A stretch of DNA of 64,000 bases, taken from an uncultured Clostridia bacterium. Lineage in GTDB: Bacteria; Bacillota; Clostridia; Oscillospirales; Oscillospiraceae. Under the pieces are notes generated by a model. It had not been told where the DNA came from. It searched no databases and worked only from the letters and a program-made list of their open reading frames with translations. Positions 741 through 46,749 of this stretch are shown here, piece after piece. The stretch lies in assembly GCA_945876285.1 (NCBI GenBank), contig CAMCNO010000001.1, positions 1 to 64,000 on the forward strand. Reading direction: 5' to 3'. The translations under genes were made by a program, and so were the position numbers. The first letter of the stretch is position 1. Each line of letters starts with the position of its first letter.

Positions 741-1838
741 ATGAAAAAGCGGGCCCTGGCGATGTTTCTGGCAACGATGATGCTCCTGTCCCTGGCAGGC
801 TGCGGAAAAAAAGAGGAGCCTGCGGTCCCGGCGGCAGAGCCGGAGCCCATAGAAGAACCCGCCCCTGAACCGGAGCCTGCCCCCGAAACGGAGCCGGAAC
901 CGGCTGGCCCGGCGGGTACGAATCCGCTGACGGGGCTGCCCATGGAGCCGGAATATGAGAATGACCGCCCGGTGGCCGTCATGTTCAACAACCTGAAGGC
1001 GGCACAGCCGCAGCTTGGTATCAGCCAGGCGGACATTATTTATGAAGTCCCGGCCGAGGGCGGTATCACCCGGATGCTGGGCGTGTTCCAGAGCCTGGAG
1101 GGTGTGGGGACCTTGGGCAGTATCCGTTCCTCCCGGCCCTACTATCTGGAGCTGGCGCTGGGGCACGATGCCCTGTATGTCCATGCCGGCGGCAGCCCGG
1201 AAGCCTATAAGGACATCCCCGCCTGGGGCGTGGACAATATGGACGGCGTCAACGGCGGCAGTGATGCCAAAATCTTCTGGCGGGACGCGGAACGAAGGAA
1301 GACCATGGACTATGAGCATACCCTGGTGACCTCCGGTGAGAAGATCCAGGAGTATGTGGACAGTCATTTCCGCACGGAGCATAAGGACGGCTATACCTAT
1401 ACCCAGGCGTTTGCTGCGGATGGTACGCCTGCCAGCGGTGCTCAGGCGAAGCGTGTGACGCTGAAATTCTCCAATTACAAGACAGGTATCTTCGATTATG
1501 ACGCGGCCTCCGGCAAGTATCTGCTCAGCCAGTACGGCAAGCCCTACACGGACGGCGCGCTGAATCAGCAGGTCAGCGCCACCAATGTGCTGGTGCTGGA
1601 GACCTCCATCAGCGAGATCGCCGGAGACACCTACGGCCGCCTGACGGTGGACCTCACAGGCAGCGGCAGCGGCACCTATTTCTGCGGCGGCAAGTGCGTG
1701 CCCATCCAGTGGAGCAAGGCGGACCGCAACAGCCAGTTCGTCTATAAGCTGCAGGACGGCACCCCGCTGACCTTGGGGCAGGGCAACAGCTATGTCTGTA
1801 TCATCAGTCCCAAACGCAGTACGCTGACGTACGAATAA
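741..1838 (+). CDS. DUF3048 domain-containing lipoprotein (YerB-like)
   Basis: A 365-aa secreted lipoprotein. Residues 1-21 are a type II signal peptide ending in the lipobox LAGC (acylated Cys21). A Glu-Pro-rich linker (about 28-58) probably spans the wall. The rest is the DUF3048 domain, recognisable by NPLTGLP, RPVAVMFNN, the Q-GISQADIIYE segment and GSIRSSRPYY. The domain is known from B. subtilis YerB; its biochemical role is not established. The start at 741 follows AAAGGAGAGG at 721-730; an upstream in-frame ATG at 645 would bury the signal peptide. The gene is monocistronic and ends in a strong terminator. Confidence 0.9.
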   Translation: MKKRALAMFLATMMLLSLAGCGKKEEPAVPAAEPEPIEEPAPEPEPAPETEPEPAGPAGTNPLTGLPMEPEYENDRPVAVMFNNLKAAQPQLGISQADIIYEVPAEGGITRMLGVFQSLEGVGTLGSIRSSRPYYLELALGHDALYVHAGGSPEAYKDIPAWGVDNMDGVNGGSDAKIFWRDAERRKTMDYEHTLVTSGEKIQEYVDSHFRTEHKDGYTYTQAFAADGTPASGAQAKRVTLKFSNYKTGIFDYDAASGKYLLSQYGKPYTDGALNQQVSATNVLVLETSISEIAGDTYGRLTVDLTGSGSGTYFCGGKCVPIQWSKADRNSQFVYKLQDGTPLTLGQGNSYVCIISPKRSTLTYE

Positions 1839-1850
1839 TGTGATTTCATC

Positions 1851-1877
1851 GGCGGGCCGTTTGGCCCGCCGTTTTTT
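1851..1877 (+). terminator. Rho-independent terminator after the DUF3048 lipoprotein gene
   Basis: GGCGGGCC (1851-1858) pairs with GGCCCGCC (1863-1870) around a GTTT loop, followed by GTTTTTT. Confidence 0.9.
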
Positions 1878-1878
1878 C

Positions 1879-1905
1879 ACCTCCCGGCCGGGCGCGCATA
1901 CACTG
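1879..1905 (+). promoter_or_regulatory. Possible mother-cell (sigma-E/sigma-K type) promoter
   Basis: CATACACT at 1897-1904 matches the sigma-E -10 pattern CATACAmT and is close to the sigma-K pattern CATAnnnTA. An AC dinucleotide (1879-1880), as in sigma-K -35 regions, lies 16 nt upstream. The sigma-E -35 match is poor. The assignment is inferred from motif similarity only. Confidence 0.3.
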
Positions 1906-1954
1906 GATTGAAAGCATCCTGCTTTCATCCAGCTACTTATTAGGAGGTATTGCA

Positions 1955-2797
1955 ATGCCCGAGAAAGTCATGCCCGGTCCCATTGAGGACCCCAGCGGCA
2001 TCCGAGAGGCGGTTTGCATCCATACCAGGAAAATCTATGATTCCTGCCGAGATAAAGACTGCATCGAAGACCTGCGCTTCTACCCGAAGATGCAGTATGT
2101 GGATGTCATCAACCGGGCGCTGTCCGTGAAGGGCGGCAGCGCAAGGCTGCTGTATGTGTATGTGGATGTGGAGCCCGTCAGCTTCAACAGGGGCTTCTAC
2201 ACCGTGGATATGCGCTTTTTCTACTCCGTGACCCTTCAGGCTTACCTGAGCTGCCCTGCACCTGTTACGGTGGAAGGCCTGTGTGTGTTCGACAAGCGGG
2301 TCATCCTGTTTGGCAGCGAGGGTAACGCCAAGATCTTCTCCTCTGAGCTGCGTGTCGGCGAGCCGGACATCCAGACGATGCGCCGGGCTAACGCCCCCGT
2401 TGCCGTGGTGGAGGCCGTCGACCCCATTGTCCTGGACGCCCGCATCATGGACTGCTGCGGCAAGCGGGACTGTGACTGCGATCTGTGTGAGGTGCCGTCC
2501 TTCGTCAACAGCTGCTTCGACGGTGAACTGTCCAGCGGTGATGATAACCGCCGGGTGTATGTCACCCTGGGCCAGTTCTCCATCGTCCGGCTGGAGCGGG
2601 ATTCTCAGCTTCTGGTGCCGGTGTACGACTACTGTATGCCTGAAAAGGAATGCTCCTGCGGGACCGGAGGTGGGGAAGACCCCTGCGGTATTTTCCGCAA
2701 CATCGGTTTCCCGGTGGGAGAGTTTTTCCCGCCCAACACCGTGAAGCTGCCGGAGAACTATGAGGACGCCAAGTTCTGCTGTGCAAGCGGCAGGTAA
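1955..2797 (+). CDS. Conserved clostridial Cys-rich protein of unknown function
   Basis: A 280-aa protein without a signal peptide or membrane segment. Its N-terminal motif (PGPIEDP, EAVCIHTRKIYDSCRDKDCI) recurs in uncharacterised proteins of spore-forming Clostridia, as far as I recall. It is rich in Cys, with a cluster CCGKRDCDCDLC near residues 168-179, CSCGTGGGEDPC near 231-242 and a CC near the C-terminus, suggesting metal binding or disulfide cross-linking. The RBS is TTAGGAGGT, 7 nt before the ATG. The upstream sequence contains a possible sigma-E/K promoter, so a spore coat or mother-cell role is conceivable, but nothing in the protein proves it. It is monocistronic and ends in a 16-bp perfect palindrome. 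Confidence 0.75.
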   Translation: MPEKVMPGPIEDPSGIREAVCIHTRKIYDSCRDKDCIEDLRFYPKMQYVDVINRALSVKGGSARLLYVYVDVEPVSFNRGFYTVDMRFFYSVTLQAYLSCPAPVTVEGLCVFDKRVILFGSEGNAKIFSSELRVGEPDIQTMRRANAPVAVVEAVDPIVLDARIMDCCGKRDCDCDLCEVPSFVNSCFDGELSSGDDNRRVYVTLGQFSIVRLERDSQLLVPVYDYCMPEKECSCGTGGGEDPCGIFRNIGFPVGEFFPPNTVKLPENYEDAKFCCASGR

Positions 2798-2804
2798 ATT
2801 AGCG

Positions 2805-2836
2805 AAAGACAGCCGGCCCGCGGGCCGGCTGTCTTT
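2805..2836. terminator. Perfect 16-bp palindromic terminator stem
   Basis: AAAGACAGCCGGCCCG (2805-2820) is directly followed by its reverse complement (2821-2836), ending in TTT. The A and T tracts on both sides would let it act in both directions, for the Cys-rich protein gene and originally for the convergent LysR gene. The group II intron begins 6 nt after it. Confidence 0.75.
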
Positions 2837-2841
2837 GCGTT

Positions 2842-3506
2842 GTGCGCCCGGCATGGGCGATAACTAGGTGGTGAAAGTCCACTGCGGACTCGGTAGCAGG
2901 AACCGCTAGCCGAAGGCAAGGGTGCCCATCGCGAGGTGGGATCTGAAGGAAGCCGGATGTGAAGGCTGAGAAGTGCCAACACGGGCAAAGTTTCGGGCCG
3001 ACGAACAGAAACCTCATATAAGGCTGACTTGGGGCGGACGACTCTACAGCGTAAGAAGAAGTCCAATGCTACCCGAACCCCATACAGTAGATGAGGCGGC
3101 TGCGAGATGAAGGTTATCGCTCTTACCCGGGGAGGTCTGCAGGATATGCTCCCGACAAGAGGGTACGAAGGATACCCACAGGAGTAACCCACGTCGCAAG
3201 GCGGTGGCTGAACCTGCAGAAGTCAGCTCTACCCATAGTACCAAAGAAATGGTTAATCACCAGGAAGGGAAGGGGTAGACGGTTGGAAACGGCTGACGAA
3301 ACAAGTTGATATCTGTGTTGACATCAGTTGCTCTACGGAGATTTAACGATTGAGGGTAGGCTGGAAGCCGAGAGTAAAGGTCGGAAATGACGAGCAGATA
3401 TCAAGGGAAAGCGTCTTAGGTCGGAACCAGCCGAAACGCCGTATGCCGAAAACGGCACGTACGGTGTTGTGGGAGGACGGGGGTTAGTCACCCCCTCCTA
3501 CCCGAT
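2842..3506 (+). mobile_element. ORF-less group II intron, class C
   Basis: The 5' end is GTGCGCCCGGCATGGGCG, the conserved group IIC start. Domain I landmarks such as GGTGGTGAAAGTCC and GGATCTGAAGGAAGCCGG follow, then TCTTACCCGGGGAGGTCTG as in the Oceanobacillus IIC intron. Domain V lies at about 3436-3466 (CGCCGTATGCC, GAAAA tetraloop region, GGCACGTACGG) and has the CGC catalytic triad that marks class C. Domain VI (3470-3503) forms a GGGAGG/CCTCC-type stem with an A in CCTACCC, and the intron ends GAT (AY rule). Insertion just downstream of a terminator hairpin is also a class C habit. Domain IV is about 150 nt with no reverse transcriptase, so mobility or splicing would need a protein in trans. 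Confidence 0.88.
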
Positions 3507-4396
3507 TAGAGCGCTTCATCAATGAACCGCCGCAGGGCGGGACTGGGGTTATCTTTCCGCCAGACCGCTAAGATCTCCTCTGTCTCCTCGTCTCCCAGCA
3601 GAGGGAGGAAGGTCAGGTTGTCGGCGTTGGTCAGCTTGTCTGTGCAGTAGGCGGGCAGAATGGAGATGCCTTCCTCTGCTGCCACCATCATCAAAATGCT
3701 CTCCACGTCGTTGGAGCGCAGCAGGATGTTGGGCTGATACCCGGCTTTCTGGTAGAGGGACATGAAGTGGGCGTCACCAAAAGAGGAACCTGTGGCGGAA
3801 GGTGTCATGTATAAAATCGTCTCATTTTTCAGTTCCTCCCGCCGCAGGGCCGTCCTCTGAGCCAGGGGATGGCTATTGTACAGCGCCACCGCCAGCCGGG
3901 CGTGCTCCACAAGGCGGTATTCCGCTTGCTCCTCCTGACGGATATTCGTGCTGTCCCAGGTAAAGATGATGTCGTACTCCTTATTCAGCAGTCCCGCCGC
4001 CAGCTCGTCGGTGTCGCAGCGGTAGCAGGTGAGGAGAATATTGGGGTGGTGCCGGTGAAAGAGGCGGAGTTTGTCCGAAAGCGTACTGCGCTCATACCCT
4101 TTTGTATAGCCGATGCGCAGGGTGCCCACCACGCCGGTGGAGGCGTCCTTGGCCCGGCTGACAGCGGTGTCCATCCGTACCAGGATGGCTTTGGCCTCTT
4201 TTAGGAATACGCTGCCTGCTGGGGTGAGGGACACCGGGCGGCTGTTGCGGTCCAGAAGCTGGACGCCCAGGCTTTCCTCCAGGGCACGCACCTGCTGGGT
4301 AACGGCGGTCTGGGAGAGGTAATATTGGATGGCGGCCTTGGTGAAGCTCCGCTGCTCCGCCACCGCCACAAAGTATTTCAACTGGTTGATATTCAT
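3506..4396 (-). CDS. LysR-family transcriptional regulator
   Basis: A 296-aa LTTR of normal length. The N-terminal winged helix-turn-helix covers residues 1-60 (MNINQLKYFVAVAEQRSFTK, then LSQTAVTQQVRALEESLGVQ), followed by the linker helix and a periplasmic-binding-like effector domain from about residue 90. ATG 4396 follows GGAGATAC; the in-frame ATG 57 nt upstream has no RBS. It is divergent from a D-2-hydroxyacid dehydrogenase, the usual arrangement for an LTTR and its target, so it probably senses a substrate or product of that enzyme and also represses itself. The last base of its TAA stop coincides with the last base of the group II intron. Confidence 0.9.
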   Translation of the reverse strand: MNINQLKYFVAVAEQRSFTKAAIQYYLSQTAVTQQVRALEESLGVQLLDRNSRPVSLTPAGSVFLKEAKAILVRMDTAVSRAKDASTGVVGTLRIGYTKGYERSTLSDKLRLFHRHHPNILLTCYRCDTDELAAGLLNKEYDIIFTWDSTNIRQEEQAEYRLVEHARLAVALYNSHPLAQRTALRREELKNETILYMTPSATGSSFGDAHFMSLYQKAGYQPNILLRSNDVESILMMVAAEEGISILPAYCTDKLTNADNLTFLPLLGDEETEEILAVWRKDNPSPALRRFIDEAL

Positions 4397-12723: not shown

Positions 12724-13602
12724 ATGGAGAAGCGTGAATTTGACACCCGGTACGGTGATTACCGCCAGGCGGTGGAGGAATATTTAAACGGTTTGTTTGC
12801 AGACAAGCCTCACTGGGCGGACCTGTATGAGTCCATGCGGTACAGCCTGCTGGCAGGCGGAAAGCGCATCCGTCCTGTATTGACCCTGGAGTTTGCCCGC
12901 CTTTCCGGAATGGACTGGAAGAAGGTTGTTCCCGTGGCCTGCGCCCTGGAGCTGGTGCATACCTATTCGCTGATCCATGATGACCTGCCCTGCATGGACG
13001 ACGATGACCTGCGCCGGGGAAAGCCCACCAACCATAAGGTTTTCGGAGAGACGATGGCAGTTCTGGCAGGTGACGCCCTCCAGCCGGAGGCGTTCCGCCT
13101 CATTCTGACGGCGCCCGGGATCGCCCCGGCGGAGCGGGCAGCCTGTGCCCTGATCCTGGCACAAGCTGCCGGAGCTGACGGTATGGTAGCGGGGCAGATT
13201 CTCGATACCCTCCATGCACCGAAAACGGAAGAAGAACTGAAAGAGGTAGACCATCTCAAGACCGGCGCGATGATCGCCGGCGCCTGCAAGCTGGGTGTTG
13301 CTGCTGCAGGCGGCAGTCCGGAACTGCTGGCTGCAGCGGAAGAATACGGATACCAGCTGGGGCTGGCCTTCCAAATTCGGGATGATATGCTGGATGTGAT
13401 CGGGAACGTCGACGAGTTCGGCAAGCCCATCGGCTCCGACAAGGAGGAGGGCAAGGTGACCTACGTGGACCTGTTCGGCATCGACGGCTGCGGTAAAAAG
13501 GTGCTGGACTGCACGGAAGCTGCCAAGGCGGCAGTCGCCCCGTTTGACGGCGGCGGCTTCCTGCGGACTCTGGCGGCCAGTCTGGCGGAGCGGAACAAAT
13601 AA
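12724..13602 (+). CDS. ispA: Polyprenyl (farnesyl) diphosphate synthase
   Basis: A 292-aa class I isoprenyl diphosphate synthase that condenses IPP with DMAPP/GPP to farnesyl diphosphate for quinone and undecaprenyl lipid synthesis. The first Asp-rich motif DDLPCMDDDD starts near residue 86 and the second (DDMLD) near 220. GGKRIRP near 41 is the IPP-binding segment. It is in operon with xseAB, and with dxs downstream makes a small isoprenoid cluster, the known context of OLE RNA. Chain length is inferred from family similarity. Confidence 0.95.
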   Translation: MEKREFDTRYGDYRQAVEEYLNGLFADKPHWADLYESMRYSLLAGGKRIRPVLTLEFARLSGMDWKKVVPVACALELVHTYSLIHDDLPCMDDDDLRRGKPTNHKVFGETMAVLAGDALQPEAFRLILTAPGIAPAERAACALILAQAAGADGMVAGQILDTLHAPKTEEELKEVDHLKTGAMIAGACKLGVAAAGGSPELLAAAEEYGYQLGLAFQIRDDMLDVIGNVDEFGKPIGSDKEEGKVTYVDLFGIDGCGKKVLDCTEAAKAAVAPFDGGGFLRTLAASLAERNK

Positions 13603-13615
13603 GACTAAAATCAGA

Positions 13616-13647
13616 AGCCGGAGAGGGAAGCCCTCTCCGGCTTTTTT
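13616..13647 (+). terminator. Strong terminator after ispA
   Basis: AGCCGGAGAGGG (13616-13627) and CCCTCTCCGGCT (13631-13642) form a perfect 12-bp stem with an AAG loop, then TTTTT. It separates the ispA transcript from the OLE RNA. Confidence 0.93.
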
Positions 13648-13688
13648 GCGGTACCCGAAAAATTCACAATTTGTATATACGGAATATG

Positions 13689-13717
13689 TTGTATATTTAT
13701 GTTTCCTGTGCTATACT
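13689..13717 (+). promoter_or_regulatory. Promoter of the OLE RNA
   Basis: TTGTAT (13689-13694), 17 nt, then TATACT (13712-13717). The predicted start about 7 nt on (near 13724) coincides with the first base of the 5' arm of the terminal helix of the RNA, which supports both calls. Confidence 0.65.
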
Positions 13718-13723
13718 AATCCT

Positions 13724-14379
13724 CGCTAAGCGGCGGCGCAGTATTCTAGTCAGATCTGCCGTTTCCTAGGGAGGGCCTAAAAATCCTCTGAAGGGCACAC
13801 CGATGAAACCTCTGGTGCCTGCTTGATACGCCCAGTTTTGGGTGGGTGCTGGGGGGAAGTGCGCCATGCGCGCTTGCGGACTCAGGGCGCTTTCCAATGG
13901 CATGGTTATCCCGACCCTGTTTCCGTGGAGACCTGTTCTTGTGCACAGTCGTACTCCCATCGTGGTATTTCCGAACTGTGTACGAAGCAGATGATGAACC
14001 TGCAATGCGGTGCATCGGTCCTGCGGGGCCGTAACGCTGTGTGCAGATGTAGCCTGCCTTGAGTGGGTATGGCGAATGAGAGGCCAGGCCGAATTTGCTC
14101 CCGGCCGGAGCGAGAGGCCCCCTGCTCTCTGAAACCATGGCTGCAAAAGAGGCTAAAGAAGCGGATGGACTGTGGTGGAAATCACCTAGGCTGTTCCATC
14201 GAGACAGAAAAGGGATTGCAGTGCGGACTAAGTGGCAATCGGGTAGCGTGTTCGGGCAACGACACGCCGCTGCGCCGAAGGGGGAACCGCCTCCATCGGC
14301 AACGAGGGGTGCGCCGCGGGGAAAACCAACCCGTACCTAAGCCGTAAGATTTACCTTTTTTGTCGCCGCCGGCTTAGCA
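13724..14379 (+). ncRNA. ole: OLE RNA (ornate, large, extremophilic RNA)
   Basis: A roughly 655-nt noncoding stretch with no supported ORF, many short GC-rich helices and its own promoter. It lies between ispA and oapA-dxs, the canonical OLE locus known from Bacillus halodurans, Thermoanaerobacter and others. The ends are complementary: GCTAAGCGGCGGCG (13725-13738) pairs with CGCCGCCGGCTTAGC (14364-14378) with one bulged G. Its protein partner OapA is the next gene. Known biology: OLE RNA forms a membrane-associated ribonucleoprotein with OapA (and OapB, OapC elsewhere) and is needed for tolerance to short-chain alcohols, cold and Mg2+ stress. Identification rests on size, location, partner gene and terminal pairing, not on a covariance-model search. 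Confidence 0.92.
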
Positions 14380-14414
14380 AATTCTGTATTTACCCTCATA
14401 TTGGAGGCGTTTAT

Positions 14415-14966
14415 TTGAAAAAAAACAAGAATCCCAAAGCGAAAAAAGAGACCTCCCAATACCGTTGGGCGACCACGGTCTTTTTGCTTGCGGTGGCTCT
14501 GTCCGCTGCGCTGAGCCTGGCCTCGGAATCCATGCTGAGCGGTGCGGGGGTAGTCGCCGCCCTTTTGATTTTGGGGGCGTTTATCGCCCTTGGCATCGTG
14601 TTCGATATTCTCGGCGTGGCCGTCACGGCGGCAGACCCCAGACCCTTTCACTCCATGGCGGCTCACAAGGAAAAGGGCGCCAAGGAGGCACTGACCCTTT
14701 TGCGGAATGCCAGCCAGGTCTCCAGCGTCTGCAACGATGTGGTGGGCGATATCTGCGGCATCGTCAGCGGAACCACTGCCGCTGTCATCGTGGTACGTCT
14801 CCAGGAGGCGCTGAGCCTGCGGTCCGTGTTGGTCTCTGTGGCTGTCACAGCTTTGATTTCCGGCCTGACCATCGGCGGCAAAGCCTTGGGTAAGACCTTT
14901 GCCATGAAGCAGAGCACGAAGGTCGTCTATTGGGCTGGACGGTTCCTGCATATTTTTCACCGCTGA
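14415..14966 (+). CDS. oapA: OLE-associated protein A
   Basis: A 183-aa membrane protein with a Lys-rich N-terminus (MKKNKNPKAKKE) and about four helices (18-37, 43-71, 105-125, 137-157). The family segment GIVFDILGVAVTAADPRPFH (about 60-79) resembles the DUF21/CNNM Mg2+-transporter membrane domain. OapA binds OLE RNA as a dimer and anchors it to the membrane. It starts with TTG at 14415, after TTGGAGG, only 36 nt past the end of OLE RNA, so RNA and protein may share a transcript. dxs follows 18 nt downstream. Confidence 0.93.
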   Translation: MKKNKNPKAKKETSQYRWATTVFLLAVALSAALSLASESMLSGAGVVAALLILGAFIALGIVFDILGVAVTAADPRPFHSMAAHKEKGAKEALTLLRNASQVSSVCNDVVGDICGIVSGTTAAVIVVRLQEALSLRSVLVSVAVTALISGLTIGGKALGKTFAMKQSTKVVYWAGRFLHIFHR

Positions 14967-14984: not shown

Positions 14985-16844
14985 ATGATTTTGGAAAATA
15001 TTCATTCTCCTGCCGATGTGAAGGCGCTGAGTAAAGACCAGCTGCCACAGCTCTGTCAGGAGCTGCGGTCGTTTTTGATAGAAAGTGTGTCCCGGACCGG
15101 CGGCCACCTGGCCGCAAACCTGGGAGCCGTGGAGCTGACGGTGGCCATCCACCGGGTGTTTGACACCGCTTCGGACCGGCTGGTGTTTGATGTGGGGCAT
15201 CAGTGCTATGTCCATAAGGCCCTGACCGGGCGGCAGGAGCTGTTTGCCACTCTCCGCCAGTTCGGCGGACTGTCCGGCTTCCCCAAGCCCTATGAGAGCG
15301 AGCACGACGCATTTATCGCGGGCCATGCCTCCAACTCTGTCTCTGTGGCACTTGGTATGGCAAGGGCAAGAACTTTACAAAAGAAAGATTACAGTGTGTT
15401 GGCGCTCATCGGCGATGGGGCGCTGACCGGCGGACTTGCCTACGAGGGCTTGAACGACGCCGGAGATTCCCATGAACCGTTGATCGTGATTTTGAACGAC
15501 AACGGAATGTCCATCAACCCCAACGTAGGGGCCATGCCGGGGCATCTGGCCCGCCTGCGGTCCAAACCGGCATATTATCACTTCAAGAAGTGGTACCGGG
15601 GCCTTTTTGGCAAGCACCCGGAGCAGAACTGCCTTTACCGCTTCAATCACAAGCTCAAATCCTCCCTGAAAAAGACCCTTTGGCCGGGGAGCACGCTGTT
15701 TGAGGATATGGGATTCACCTATCTGGGGCCTATCGATGGCCATGACCTGCCCCGCCTGTGCGATGTTCTGCAATGGGCCAAGGAATTGAACAGCCCCGTG
15801 GTGGTCCATGTGAACACCGTAAAAGGGAAGGGCTATCCCTTTGCCGAGCAGAATCCCGGCAAATTCCATGGCGTCAGCCCCTTTGACCCGGAGACGGGCC
15901 TTGTAAAAAAGCCGTCGGGCGAGAGCTTTTCCTCCGTTTTCGGTAAGGCGTTGGCAGACTGCGCCGCCCGGGACAGCCGGGTCTGCGCCGTTACCGCCGC
16001 CATGGCGGACGGTACTGGACTCTCTAGCTTTGCAAAGAAATTCCCGGAGCGGTTCTTTGACGTGGCTATCGCGGAGGGACACGGCGTGTCCATGTCCGCG
16101 GGACTGGCCAGCCAGGGGATGATCCCGGTCTTCGCGGTCTATTCCACCTTCCTGCAGCGCGGCTATGATGAACTGATCCACGATGTGTCATTGGAGCACC
16201 TCCATGTGGTGCTGGCGGTGGACCGGGCGGGCCTTGTGGGGGCCGACGGCGAGACTCACCATGGCTGCTTCGACGTGCTGTTTCTCTCGGAGATACCGGG
16301 CTTTACTGTTCTGTGTCCCGCCAGCTTCGCGGAGCTGCGGTCCATGCTGCGGCAGGCTGTTTTTGAGCTGGACGGACCCGTGGCCGTCCGCTATCCCCGG
16401 GGCGGCGAGGGCGTTTTTCAGGCGGATACCTCGGATAAGCCCATCGTTTCCCTGCGGCAGGGCACGGATGTGACGCTGGTTTCCTACGGGATTTTGGTGA
16501 ACCACCTTTTGGAGGCTGCTGAATTGTTGGCGGCGGATGGTATCCAGGCAGAGGTGGTGAAGCTGAACCGTGTTTCTCCACTGGAGCATGATGTGGTGTG
16601 CGATGCGCTGGGAAATCGAAAGCGGCTGCTGGTGCTGGAGGATTCCTTCGGCGCCGGATGCGTGGGCCAGCGGCTGGCTGCCATTCTGGCGGAGCACGGT
16701 ATGGCCCCGGAAAAGCTGATTTTGAAGAATCTTGGAAAGACCTATGCCCCGGAGGGCAGTGTGAGCCAACTGGAGCACAGCCGGGGTCTGGATACCGCCG
16801 GCGTGGCGGCAGCGGTACGGGAGGCGATGAACGATGGCAAATAA
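14985..16844 (+). CDS. dxs: 1-deoxy-D-xylulose-5-phosphate synthase
   Basis: A 619-aa thiamine-diphosphate enzyme that condenses pyruvate and glyceraldehyde 3-phosphate to DXP, the first step of the MEP isoprenoid pathway. The N-terminal GGHLAANLGAVELTVAIH carries the catalytic His. The ThDP/Mg motif GDGALTGG lies near 143 with NDNGMSINPNVG near 171. The transketolase middle domain contains DRAGLVGADGETHHG. Length is normal. It overlaps tlyA by 11 nt. Confidence 0.97.
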   Translation: MILENIHSPADVKALSKDQLPQLCQELRSFLIESVSRTGGHLAANLGAVELTVAIHRVFDTASDRLVFDVGHQCYVHKALTGRQELFATLRQFGGLSGFPKPYESEHDAFIAGHASNSVSVALGMARARTLQKKDYSVLALIGDGALTGGLAYEGLNDAGDSHEPLIVILNDNGMSINPNVGAMPGHLARLRSKPAYYHFKKWYRGLFGKHPEQNCLYRFNHKLKSSLKKTLWPGSTLFEDMGFTYLGPIDGHDLPRLCDVLQWAKELNSPVVVHVNTVKGKGYPFAEQNPGKFHGVSPFDPETGLVKKPSGESFSSVFGKALADCAARDSRVCAVTAAMADGTGLSSFAKKFPERFFDVAIAEGHGVSMSAGLASQGMIPVFAVYSTFLQRGYDELIHDVSLEHLHVVLAVDRAGLVGADGETHHGCFDVLFLSEIPGFTVLCPASFAELRSMLRQAVFELDGPVAVRYPRGGEGVFQADTSDKPIVSLRQGTDVTLVSYGILVNHLLEAAELLAADGIQAEVVKLNRVSPLEHDVVCDALGNRKRLLVLEDSFGAGCVGQRLAAILAEHGMAPEKLILKNLGKTYAPEGSVSQLEHSRGLDTAGVAAAVREAMNDGK

Positions 16845-17655: not shown

Positions 17656-18536
17656 ATCAGAAAAAGATCATCCTCTGTCCAAATCCCAACCGGGATCAGG
17701 GCATGGCCGCAACGAAAACGGCGGAGCAGATATTGCAGGAGATGGGCTTTCGCACGGTGGTTTGCTCTCCGTTCAAGGACCAGAAGGAAGGGGCCTTTGC
17801 CGATTACGACGTGCGTCCGCTGCCCCAGGAGATGAAGGGCGCCGACCTGATGGTGACCTTCGGCGGCGACGGTACCATCCTGCACCTTGCTAAGCTGGCG
17901 GCATTGAATAAACTTCCGGTGCTGGGCATCAACATGGGCGGTCTTGGCTTCATCGCGGAGCTGGAGGCCGGAGAGCTGGATACGCTGCGGAAGCTGAAAG
18001 ACTGGGATTTTGAAACAGAATCCCGCATGATGCTGGATGTCTCCGTGATTCGGGACGGTAAGCAGATCTACACGAACCTGGGCCTGAATGACGCTGTGAT
18101 CCGGGAAGGCCCCATTTCCCATGTTATTCACCTGAAAATATCCTCCGACGGCCGCCATCTGGCGGATATTGCCGGAGACGGTGTTATCATTTCCACACCC
18201 ACCGGCTCCACGGCGTATTCCCTCTCTGCCGGCGGCCCGGTAGTGGAGCCTGTGGCGCAGACCATGGTGGTCTGTCCCATCTGCACCCATAATATGCGGT
18301 TTTCCTCTTATGTCCTGTCGCCGGAGCACGTGCTGACGGTGGAATTGGAGCGGAATGGCCGCAAGCCGGTTTTCCTGTTCGTAGATGAAAGCCGCGCGTT
18401 TCCGCTGAAGGCGGACGATCAGGTCCTGGTGCGCCGCAGCAAGTATGCGATGAAGCTGGTGCGGCTGACGGAAAAGAGTTTTTGCGAAATTTTTGCCCAA
18501 AAAATGCTTCCGGGAGGTTTTAACCATGAAAAATGA
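17652..18536 (+). CDS. nadK: NAD kinase
   Basis: A 294-aa ATP-NAD kinase making NADP. The signature GGDGT (TFGGDGTILHLAK) lies near residue 75, the NE/D-type segment is LGLNDAVIREG, and the glycine-rich TPTGSTAYSLSAGGP lies near 183. It is in the conserved tlyA-nadK-argR-recN order. It is coupled to tlyA by an ATGA overlap, and its 3' end overlaps argR by 11 nt. Confidence 0.96.
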   Translation: MNQKKIILCPNPNRDQGMAATKTAEQILQEMGFRTVVCSPFKDQKEGAFADYDVRPLPQEMKGADLMVTFGGDGTILHLAKLAALNKLPVLGINMGGLGFIAELEAGELDTLRKLKDWDFETESRMMLDVSVIRDGKQIYTNLGLNDAVIREGPISHVIHLKISSDGRHLADIAGDGVIISTPTGSTAYSLSAGGPVVEPVAQTMVVCPICTHNMRFSSYVLSPEHVLTVELERNGRKPVFLFVDESRAFPLKADDQVLVRRSKYAMKLVRLTEKSFCEIFAQKMLPGGFNHEK

Positions 18537-18975
18537 CCGCCAAACTATGATCCTGGAAATCATTTCCCAGGAAAACATCGAGACCCAGGAGCAGCTTTTG
18601 GCCCGGCTCCAGGAGCGGGGTATCACCAGCACCCAGGCCACGATCTCCCGGGACATCAAACAGATGCACCTGATCAAGGAACCTGTGGGGCAGGGTGTAT
18701 ATAAGTATGCCGTTTCCGGCAACCGGACGAAGCTGAACTTCGCGGAGAAGCTACGCACGATCTTCCGCGAGAGTATCACCAGCATTGCCTACGCCCAGAA
18801 TATCGTGGTCCTCAAAACCATGCCGGGCCTGGCAAGCGCCGCCTGCTCCGCGCTGGATAACATGGACATCACGTATATGGTGGGCTCCTTGGCGGGTGAC
18901 GACACGGCGTTTCTGCTGATGCGGGATACGGAATCCGCCGCGGCTTTCTGCGAAGAAATTAAAGAGATGCTTTGA
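18526..18975 (+). CDS. argR: Arginine repressor ArgR/AhrC
   Basis: A 149-aa arginine-responsive regulator. The N-terminal winged helix (about 1-70) contains TSTQATISRDIKQMHLIK, and the C-terminal hexamerisation/Arg-binding domain contains GLASAACSALD and the GDDTAFLL motif with the two conserved Asp (about 124-125). ATG 18526 follows GGGAGG; the longer frame from 18493 lies inside nadK without an RBS. It probably represses arginine synthesis genes elsewhere. Confidence 0.96.
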   Translation: MKNDRQTMILEIISQENIETQEQLLARLQERGITSTQATISRDIKQMHLIKEPVGQGVYKYAVSGNRTKLNFAEKLRTIFRESITSIAYAQNIVVLKTMPGLASAACSALDNMDITYMVGSLAGDDTAFLLMRDTESAAAFCEEIKEML

Positions 18976-46492: not shown

Positions 46493-46749
46493 GAATATTG
46501 GAACTGCGAAGATGGGAAGCAGTACCCGGTACGTGAAAGCCAAGAGAGGGAACGGTTGGTGAGAGTTCCTGTGAAGCGGCCGGAGAAGTCGTCCCGGAGC
46601 ATTGGGCTGAAGGAACAGTAAGCCGCAACGGTCTCCCTCCGTTACCGGGGAAGGGTGTGTAAGCGCCCATGAGCGCGTGTTTCGACACGAATCCAGGTGG
46701 TACCACGGACAGTTTGTTCGCCCTGAGCCGAAAGGCTCGGGGCGTTTTT
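46493..46749 (+). promoter_or_regulatory. T-box riboswitch (valine tRNA-sensing) upstream of valS
   Basis: A leader of about 255 nt with the T-box sequence AGGTGGTACCACGG (46695-46708), which pairs with the uncharged tRNA end. Stem I landmarks are AGTA near 46522, AGAGAG near 46543 and GGTTGGTG near 46554. A likely valine specifier GTC lies at 46588-46590 (GAAGTCGTC, with a second GTC just after). A terminator hairpin CGCCCTGAGCC/GGCTCGGGGCG (46719-46729/46734-46744) with TTTTT ends the leader. Uncharged tRNA-Val should stabilise the antiterminator and turn valS on. Confidence 0.93.

Follow-up and report, generated by a model that had tools for sequence, protein, structure and literature searches.

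Does the region between ispA and oapA-dxs encode an OLE RNA, and if so, what sets that RNA apart from those already described? OLE RNAs are among the largest structured bacterial RNAs without a known biochemical role, and the hallmarks of the class are an abundant RNA of about 600 nt at the membrane and stress phenotypes. The locus was analysed within its window (the whole 64,000-nt stretch of DNA under study) and compared with OLE loci from the same family (Oscillospiraceae) and class.

Identification of the OLE RNA gene

A cmscan search showed that positions 13717-14385 on the + strand match the Rfam OLE family (RF01071) from model position 1 to 616 of 616 with a score of 390.7 bits (E = 2.9e-111; the gathering score of RF01071 in Rfam is 50 bits). 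This was the single OLE match in the assembly (2.29 Mb, 94 contigs, 85.5% complete), and the same covariance-model search gave no match in 14 control genomes. A first-pass annotation had called an OLE RNA at 13724-14379 and had pointed to the Rfam covariance model as the check on that call. The outcome was a high score across the whole span, not an absent match, and the call is borne out over the full length of the model; the span fits the predicted RNA start at about 13724 and the end of the closing helix at 14378.

13717..14385, + strand, OLE RNA (Rfam match; predicted RNA start at about 13724)
14985..16844, + strand, dxs
18493..18975, + strand, argR

Upstream of ole lie xseA, xseB and ispA (12724-13602), and downstream lie oapA, dxs, tlyA, nadK, argR and recN, a gene order that agrees with the earlier placement of ole between ispA and oapA-dxs. 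Among these neighbours, xseA was identified from reading of its ORF only and nadK from its ORF and Pfam. ArgR is an unpublished candidate OLE partner according to the available text of PMC12265935 and PMC12054373.

The nearest sequences come from Oscillibacter sp. RGIG9025 from water deer rectum, with 97% identity in OapA and 99% identity in OLE over 630 columns, and from Oscillibacter valericigenes An890. An intact OLE was found in nine same-genus genomes among the matches listed, the source genome included. From its relatives only, we infer a gut habitat for the source genome. The label 'spore-former' rests on five model matches, to spoIIIAA, AB, AE, AF and AG (E = 2e-77 to 8e-13), all of them below the NCBIfam curated cut-offs, and is therefore putative.

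Elsewhere in the window, Rfam matches to group II intron parts lie in order on the + strand at 2925-3506 (D1D4-3, 2925-3121; D1D4-1, 3185-3275; Intron_gpII, 3434-3506). The three matches cover about 580 nt in all, which would not accommodate an intron-encoded reverse transcriptase between them, and the element looks like an ORF-less group II intron. A T-box leader was matched in Rfam at 46500-46728 on the + strand (106.7 bits).

A covarying closing helix

For comparison of the RNAs an alignment was built in which both anchors were found in 98 of 112 sources (14 were without them, some being cut by contig ends); one sequence, a copy of the window, was left out, giving 97 sequences.

13725..13738, + strand, 5' strand of the closing helix, taken as P1
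14364..14378, + strand, 3' strand of the closing helix

The two ends of the RNA form a helix of 14 pairs and one bulge (13725-13738 with 14364-14378). On the 97 sequences, 85.1% of the cells pair and 12 of the 14 pairs have changed on both sides. Double changes were counted in 134 cells, compared with 40.3 in shuffles (0 of 500 shuffles were as high), and when the partner strand was slid, pairing fell to 25-62%. The terminal complementarity reported in the first-pass annotation is thus a covarying helix. In the RF01071 structure line the ends are unpaired and no closing helix is drawn, despite this strong covariation in Oscillospiraceae. The published OLE model places a P1 in domain 2, according to the available text of PMC12265935, and the closing helix is taken to be this P1, the two having been equated from that text.

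Promoter and upstream elements

13615..13647, + strand, 13-bp hairpin with trailing T's, likely ispA terminator
13675..13696, no strand assigned, operator-like inverted repeat ATATAC-N10-GTATAT over the ole -35 region, found by eye
13689..13694 and 13709..13717, + strand, predicted ole promoter (TTGTAT, 17-nt spacer, extended -10 TG-C-TATACT)

The extended -10 predicts a transcription start at about 13724, which coincides with the foot of the 14-bp closing helix. Of 95 relatives, 78 carry TG at the position expected for an extended -10 (best site per relative, by a script without a shuffled control; 95 of the 97 relatives were used, 100 nt of upstream sequence being required). The ole promoter was not among the sites of a generic promoter scanner, its -35 matching 3 of 6 positions; one other site, at 13663-13690, was listed by the scanner at chance level (1 found vs 0.8 expected). 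The case for the promoter is therefore its conservation in relatives and not scanner output, and on this ground the earlier claim that ole has its own promoter holds, though the scanner was silent.

In a terminator scan the whole 13-bp stem at 13615-13647 was listed for the - strand, and 5 bp of it for the + strand. This hairpin likely terminates the ispA transcript and so parts ole from ispA. The inverted repeat at 13675-13696, which is similar in many Oscillibacter relatives, may be an operator, for ArgR or some other regulator; a search of the whole incomplete assembly with up to two mismatches gave one match, and no regulon sharing the repeat was found.

Protein partners

14415..14966, + strand, oapA, 183 aa, CNNM-like membrane protein (TTG start, GGAGG at 14403-14407)

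The oapA gene, expected at this place from the first-pass annotation, was found directly downstream of ole, starting 29 nt past the end of the OLE match. Its product scored 30 bits against Pfam CNNM (cut-off 28.4). An AlphaFold2 model built with 39 relatives was all helical (pLDDT 82.9, pTM 0.72), and its five best PDB matches in Foldseek were all CNNM/CorC structures (7m1t twice, 7m1u, 7cff and 7cfg), with a probability of 1.00 but E values of 0.005-0.26, none below 0.001. OapA is thus predicted to be a CNNM-related helical membrane protein, as belongs to the OLE class. The block CNDVVGDICGI was invariant in 39 of 39 relatives, and we take the D-x-x-x-D pattern within it to be part of the published OapA motif.

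For OapC, an ORF lies between rpoC and rpsL in the source genome, with YbxF as its best PDB match (E = 3.8e-12). Neither infA nor any KOW protein was found in the source assembly, which is 85.5% complete. In five of five congeners an OapB-like ORF occupies the map-infA slot ahead of infA, and one congener OapB compared with the PDB OapB gave E = 9.3e-7; in the survey of this slot, 5 of 27 loci had no infA motif. bS21 was present in 28 of 28 genomes, the source genome included. The 28 genomes of these partner surveys were picked for completeness from the family listing, not at random. Full-length CNNM (MpfA-like) proteins above 100 bits were detected in 5 of 16 chosen genomes with OLE vs 11 of 12 without, and none was found in the source genome; the counts repeat the published anticorrelation, on genomes selected by the analyst. 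Taken together, the full model match, the adjacent oapA, the OapC gene in its usual place and OapB in five of five congeners support the call of an OLE ribonucleoprotein, as predicted from sequence.

Occurrence of OLE in the family and class

OLE was found in 125 of 400 genomes sampled from the family, representing 32 of 106 genera, and in 151 of 391 genomes sampled from the class. In addition, 2,822 Bacillota genomes with OLE have been reported, with the gut clades TANB77 and RF39 named in the text available (PMC11332333). The first-pass annotation had placed its interest in an OLE RNA from a gut mesophile. Since OLE is common in the family, in the class and in published gut clades, that reason is outdated, and occurrence in a gut bacterium was rejected as a novelty. 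Of the earlier interpretation, the ribonucleoprotein call stands and the newness outside extreme habitats does not, and the J5/6 hairpin described below had been missed.

OapA was detected in 127 of 400 family genomes, including 125 of the 125 with OLE (two lists compared by eye and count). The two genomes with OapA and without an OLE match were G185 and G358. The former was rejected as such a case, its oapA ending 172 nt from a contig end; the latter has an OapA match of 28% identity in a 503-codon frame. 'Mini-OLE' copies in six genomes (G184, G203, G234, G303, G330 and G385) were also rejected: each of these short or split matches lies at or near a contig end, and they were therefore read as assembly breaks. 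Assemblies often break inside ole, which is a source of false 'mini-OLE' calls. In a search for viral oapA copies, 14 stretches matched the pattern and none encoded a relative. One relative (L163, G029:C28) carries a 786-codon ORF at 1594-3954 between ole and oapA that reads like a secreted solute-binding lipoprotein, and in G234, from the same genus as G029, about 2.4 kb separates ole and oapA.

An extra hairpin in J5/6

13776..13785, + strand, P4 loop CCUAAAAAUC, RNA dimer contact in published structures (available text of PMC12265935 and PMC12286853)
13857..13875, + strand, extra J5/6 hairpin, AAGUGCGC-CAU-GCGCGCUU, 8 bp, at the P5-P6 joint

The joint between P5 and P6 carries an additional hairpin in 70 of the 97 aligned OLE RNAs (the window and 69 others). 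In the window, its pairs have probabilities of 0.83-1.00 when the whole RNA is folded and of 0.87-1.00 when 146 nt are folded; a 51-nt piece that omits P5 prefers another pairing, and the hairpin is lost. Covariation was assessed on 68 of the 70 carriers, comprising 59 distinct sequences. The results showed that 97.0% of cells were paired and that 74 cells had double changes, compared with 23.2 in shuffles (0 of 500 as high), whereas only 20-52% of cells paired in slid versions. Of the five measures of covariation, one did not exceed shuffles: pairs showing any double change numbered 6 vs 5.1 (176 of 500). The base of the hairpin (AAG/CUU or AGG/CCU) and the UGCG that follows it are nearly constant, the upper stem covaries, and the loop is variable in sequence and length.

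The distance from the P4 loop to the P6 loop was measured at 165 of 173 family loci and at 87 of 90 class loci, the 90 being taken from the 151 class genomes with OLE. In the 87 OLEs, which come from 48 other families of the class, the distance was always 90-93 nt and the hairpin was found in none. In the family it was 91-92 nt at 29 of the 165 loci and at least 105 nt at 136, with 110 nt in the window; it is 92 nt in G241 and 123 nt in G354. The segment is very large in four relatives (L162 from G105, L225 from G111, L074 and L097), with P4-to-P6 distances of 199-272 nt; in these the added hairpin has become larger still.

By genus, the hairpin is present in 22 of the 32 family genera examined and absent from 10, a count that drew on 94 of the 125 family genomes with OLE; it is safer than the locus count because some family loci are probably one genome entered twice, as with L034 and G155, whose contigs are both 98,867 nt long. 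When the segment was left out of the tree building, two state changes were required to account for the 70 carriers, compared with 35.3 in shuffles. A single gain was obtained in 15% of bootstrap trees; the tree has several long branches, and its deep order is unsure. The hairpin would thus have arisen by one or two changes on the tree, and it is well supported, as a predicted structure, as a lineage-specific addition.

The main text available for PMC11332333, PMC12265935, PMC9723947, PMC12054373, PMC12286853 and PMC10898510 does not describe this hairpin; the OLE variations named there concern J6/7 to P8, P9 and P13. Among the papers covered by a literature search, none mentions both OLE RNA and Oscillibacter. 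The published authors' alignments may already contain the hairpin.

Kink turns 1a and 1b

13799..13807, + strand, J4a/5 kink-turn strand (A83, variable 84, C85, bulge 86-88, G89, A90, A91)
13925..13932, + strand, J6/7 strand of kink turn 1b, GUGGAGAC (role according to the available text of PMC12286853)

The hairpin lies in a disputed part of the RNA. Biochemistry pairs J4a/5 with J5/6 (turn 1a), whereas cryo-EM pairs J4a/5 with J6/7 (turn 1b). The text available for PMC9723947 describes the OapC kink turn of H. halodurans as formed by J4a/5 (83-96) with a strand made up of J5/6 and the left side of P6 (136-147), the C helix containing a U84-G wobble; mutant U84C binds OapC, U84A binds more weakly and C85A abolished binding at the concentrations tested. 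In the cryo-EM structure of C. acetobutylicum OLE, as given in the text of PMC12286853, the kink turn is instead formed by J4a/5 with J6/7. PMC12054373, in the part available, names the two turns 1a and 1b, gives covariation support for both and reports that bS21 favours 1a; it is the only source drawn on here for bS21-OLE data. The numbering of the window against H. halodurans and the exact 1a and 1b pairings used below were deduced from the text of these papers.

Four letters of the J4a/5 core (C85, U88, G89 and A90) and six of J6/7 (G209, G211-G214 and C216) are the same in 97 of 97 sequences, which are related and not independent. Position 84 behaves otherwise. A U stands there in all 27 family members that lack the hairpin vs 26 of the 70 that carry it, and in 81 of 84 parsed class members. 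Each of the 59 distinct hairpin sequences has a pyrimidine at the position opposite 84 in turn 1a. Positions 84 and 146 are both pyrimidines in 43 of the 70 carriers (146 was read on 68), with C84 opposite U146 in the window, so the 84-146 pair of turn 1a is impossible in these 43. Moreover, the 5' arm of the hairpin (AAG) is itself the 1a strand, and the hairpin and turn 1a are therefore mutually exclusive. Turn 1a would thus be missing from the window lineage, where the hairpin is predicted to occupy its strand. Since cryo-EM shows turn 1b instead, turn 1a is not class-defining. Of the 70 carriers, 44 have also lost the 84-A215 pair, the second in the C helix of turn 1b, and turn 1b may therefore be weak too.

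Interpretation

The first-pass call of a genuine OLE RNA gene was correct; OLE is common in this lineage, and what is unusual is the J5/6 addition. The whole explanation that we favour, with a probability of roughly 80%, is that the locus encodes a functional OLE RNA in an Oscillibacter-like bacterium and that its J5/6 hairpin most likely favours turn 1b over turn 1a. By analogy with H. halodurans and clostridia, the RNA would be transcribed from about 13724, probably together with oapA, and then trimmed at its 3' end; it would dimerise through the P4, P5/P6 and P9 loops, be held at the membrane by OapA, and help the cell to withstand cold, alcohol, Mg2+ stress and poor carbon sources. In the hairpin lineage, the most likely effect would be that P5 and P6 stay folded without turn 1a and that OapC, if it binds at all, does so on turn 1b, of which the conserved J6/7 strand is a part.

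A serious competitor, to which we give somewhat less than even odds, is that the hairpin is a neutral junction expansion that points away from the particle and leaves OapC and bS21 binding unchanged. Structured RNAs often expand at their apices and junctions, and the P4-to-P6 segment does vary widely within the family, from 105 to 272 nt, yet the same joint keeps its 90-93 nt in all 87 OLEs measured in other families. Some OLE clades lack OapB and OapC (PMC11332333, available text), so the system tolerates change, but a hairpin base and UGCG that stay nearly constant while the upper stem covaries, and a U84 that is relaxed only where the hairpin is present, speak against neutrality.

We advance only tentatively, as an idea that may well prove wrong, that a large Oscillospiraceae clade has rebuilt the OLE switch: a hairpin gained once or twice would permanently block turn 1a, and the OLE particle would work either with turn 1b only or with the help of a new hairpin-binding partner. 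If turn 1a is blocked in this manner, OapC- and bS21-driven refolding of the H. halodurans type cannot happen.

It is unlikely, in our judgement, that a lineage-specific protein, or OapC itself, has gained a new docking site in the hairpin, by which the partner network would be extended rather than cut. Strong covariation indicates that the stem is kept under selection and an OapC with YbxF-like sequence is kept in the source genome, but the loop is variable in sequence and length and the hairpin shows no kink-turn motif by eye; a kink turn inside the new hairpin was rejected on that inspection. Finally, it is very improbable that the region is nothing but an oapA-dxs mRNA leader, or the remnant of an OLE gene, and gives no stable RNA of its own, since the short gap of 29 nt before oapA and the lack of any listed terminator-like site within it are outweighed by the full-length model match, the covariation at the closing helix and J5/6 hairpin, the conserved promoter and the intact copies in nine same-genus genomes (own included) among the matches listed.

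Under the favoured reading, in which turn 1b prevails, a stable hairpin lies in the 1a strand while the 1b core is untouched, and the lineage is therefore a ready-made test of 1a against 1b for which no designed mutant is needed. As the hairpin sits where the partner protein is thought to reshape OLE, the debated switch becomes testable. The cultured-strain relatives close to the window by record name are O. valericigenes An890 and An860, so binding and growth work is conceivable.

Comparison with known OLE systems

The locus resembles that of H. halodurans in its full class-model match, the adjacent oapA, the nearby ispA, dxs, argR and recN, and the OapC and bS21 genes in the genome. It differs in that the window lineage has the extra J5/6 hairpin and has not kept U84, and, whereas one polycistronic RNA is reported for H. 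halodurans (PMC12265935, available text), a terminator-like hairpin precedes ole in the window.

A further difference from H. halodurans is that the aligned family members lack the CCUCCU mimic of the anti-Shine-Dalgarno sequence in P6. The 3' strand of P6 holds an exact copy in 0 of 97 sequences and a copy with one mismatch in 8 of 97, and 3 of 97 have CCUCCU at some place in the RNA; the flanking G-C pairs (G169-G171 and C199-C201, numbered from 13717) show no change in any of the 97. According to the text available for PMC12054373, the mimic prompted the bS21 work, and mutants M1-M3, in which the mimic was changed and the pairing kept, still bind bS21. Its absence from the aligned family members, as with M1-M3, suggests that the mimic is not the general basis of bS21 recognition.

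OapA shares the CNNM membrane domain with the MpfA/CorC/CNNM Mg2+ transporters but, at 183 aa, is without their CBS and CorC domains.

The family shares the dimer-contact loops of the C. acetobutylicum cryo-EM structure: their letters are invariant in 97 of 97 for L4 (C61-T68 of the P4 loop, counted from 13717) and for most of L5 and L6, the GGCC of L9 is kept at 90% or more in the 97 relatives, and the J6/7 strand of turn 1b is kept. The five-way junction of C. acetobutylicum OLE (available text of PMC12286853) would become a six-way junction in the window lineage by the added hairpin.

With OLE variants 1 (TANB77) and 2 (RF39), as described in the available text of PMC11332333, the window shares a putative origin in uncultured gut Bacillota and a lineage-specific architecture. 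The P7 and P8 regions, absent in variant 2, are matched in the window, and the invariance of G582, G583, A586 and C587 at the P13 end in 97 of 97 sequences speaks against variant 1. In the TANB77 and RF39 variants P7, P8, P9 and the OapB site are short or missing, whereas the window matches the model at each of its 616 positions and differs by a gain in J5/6.
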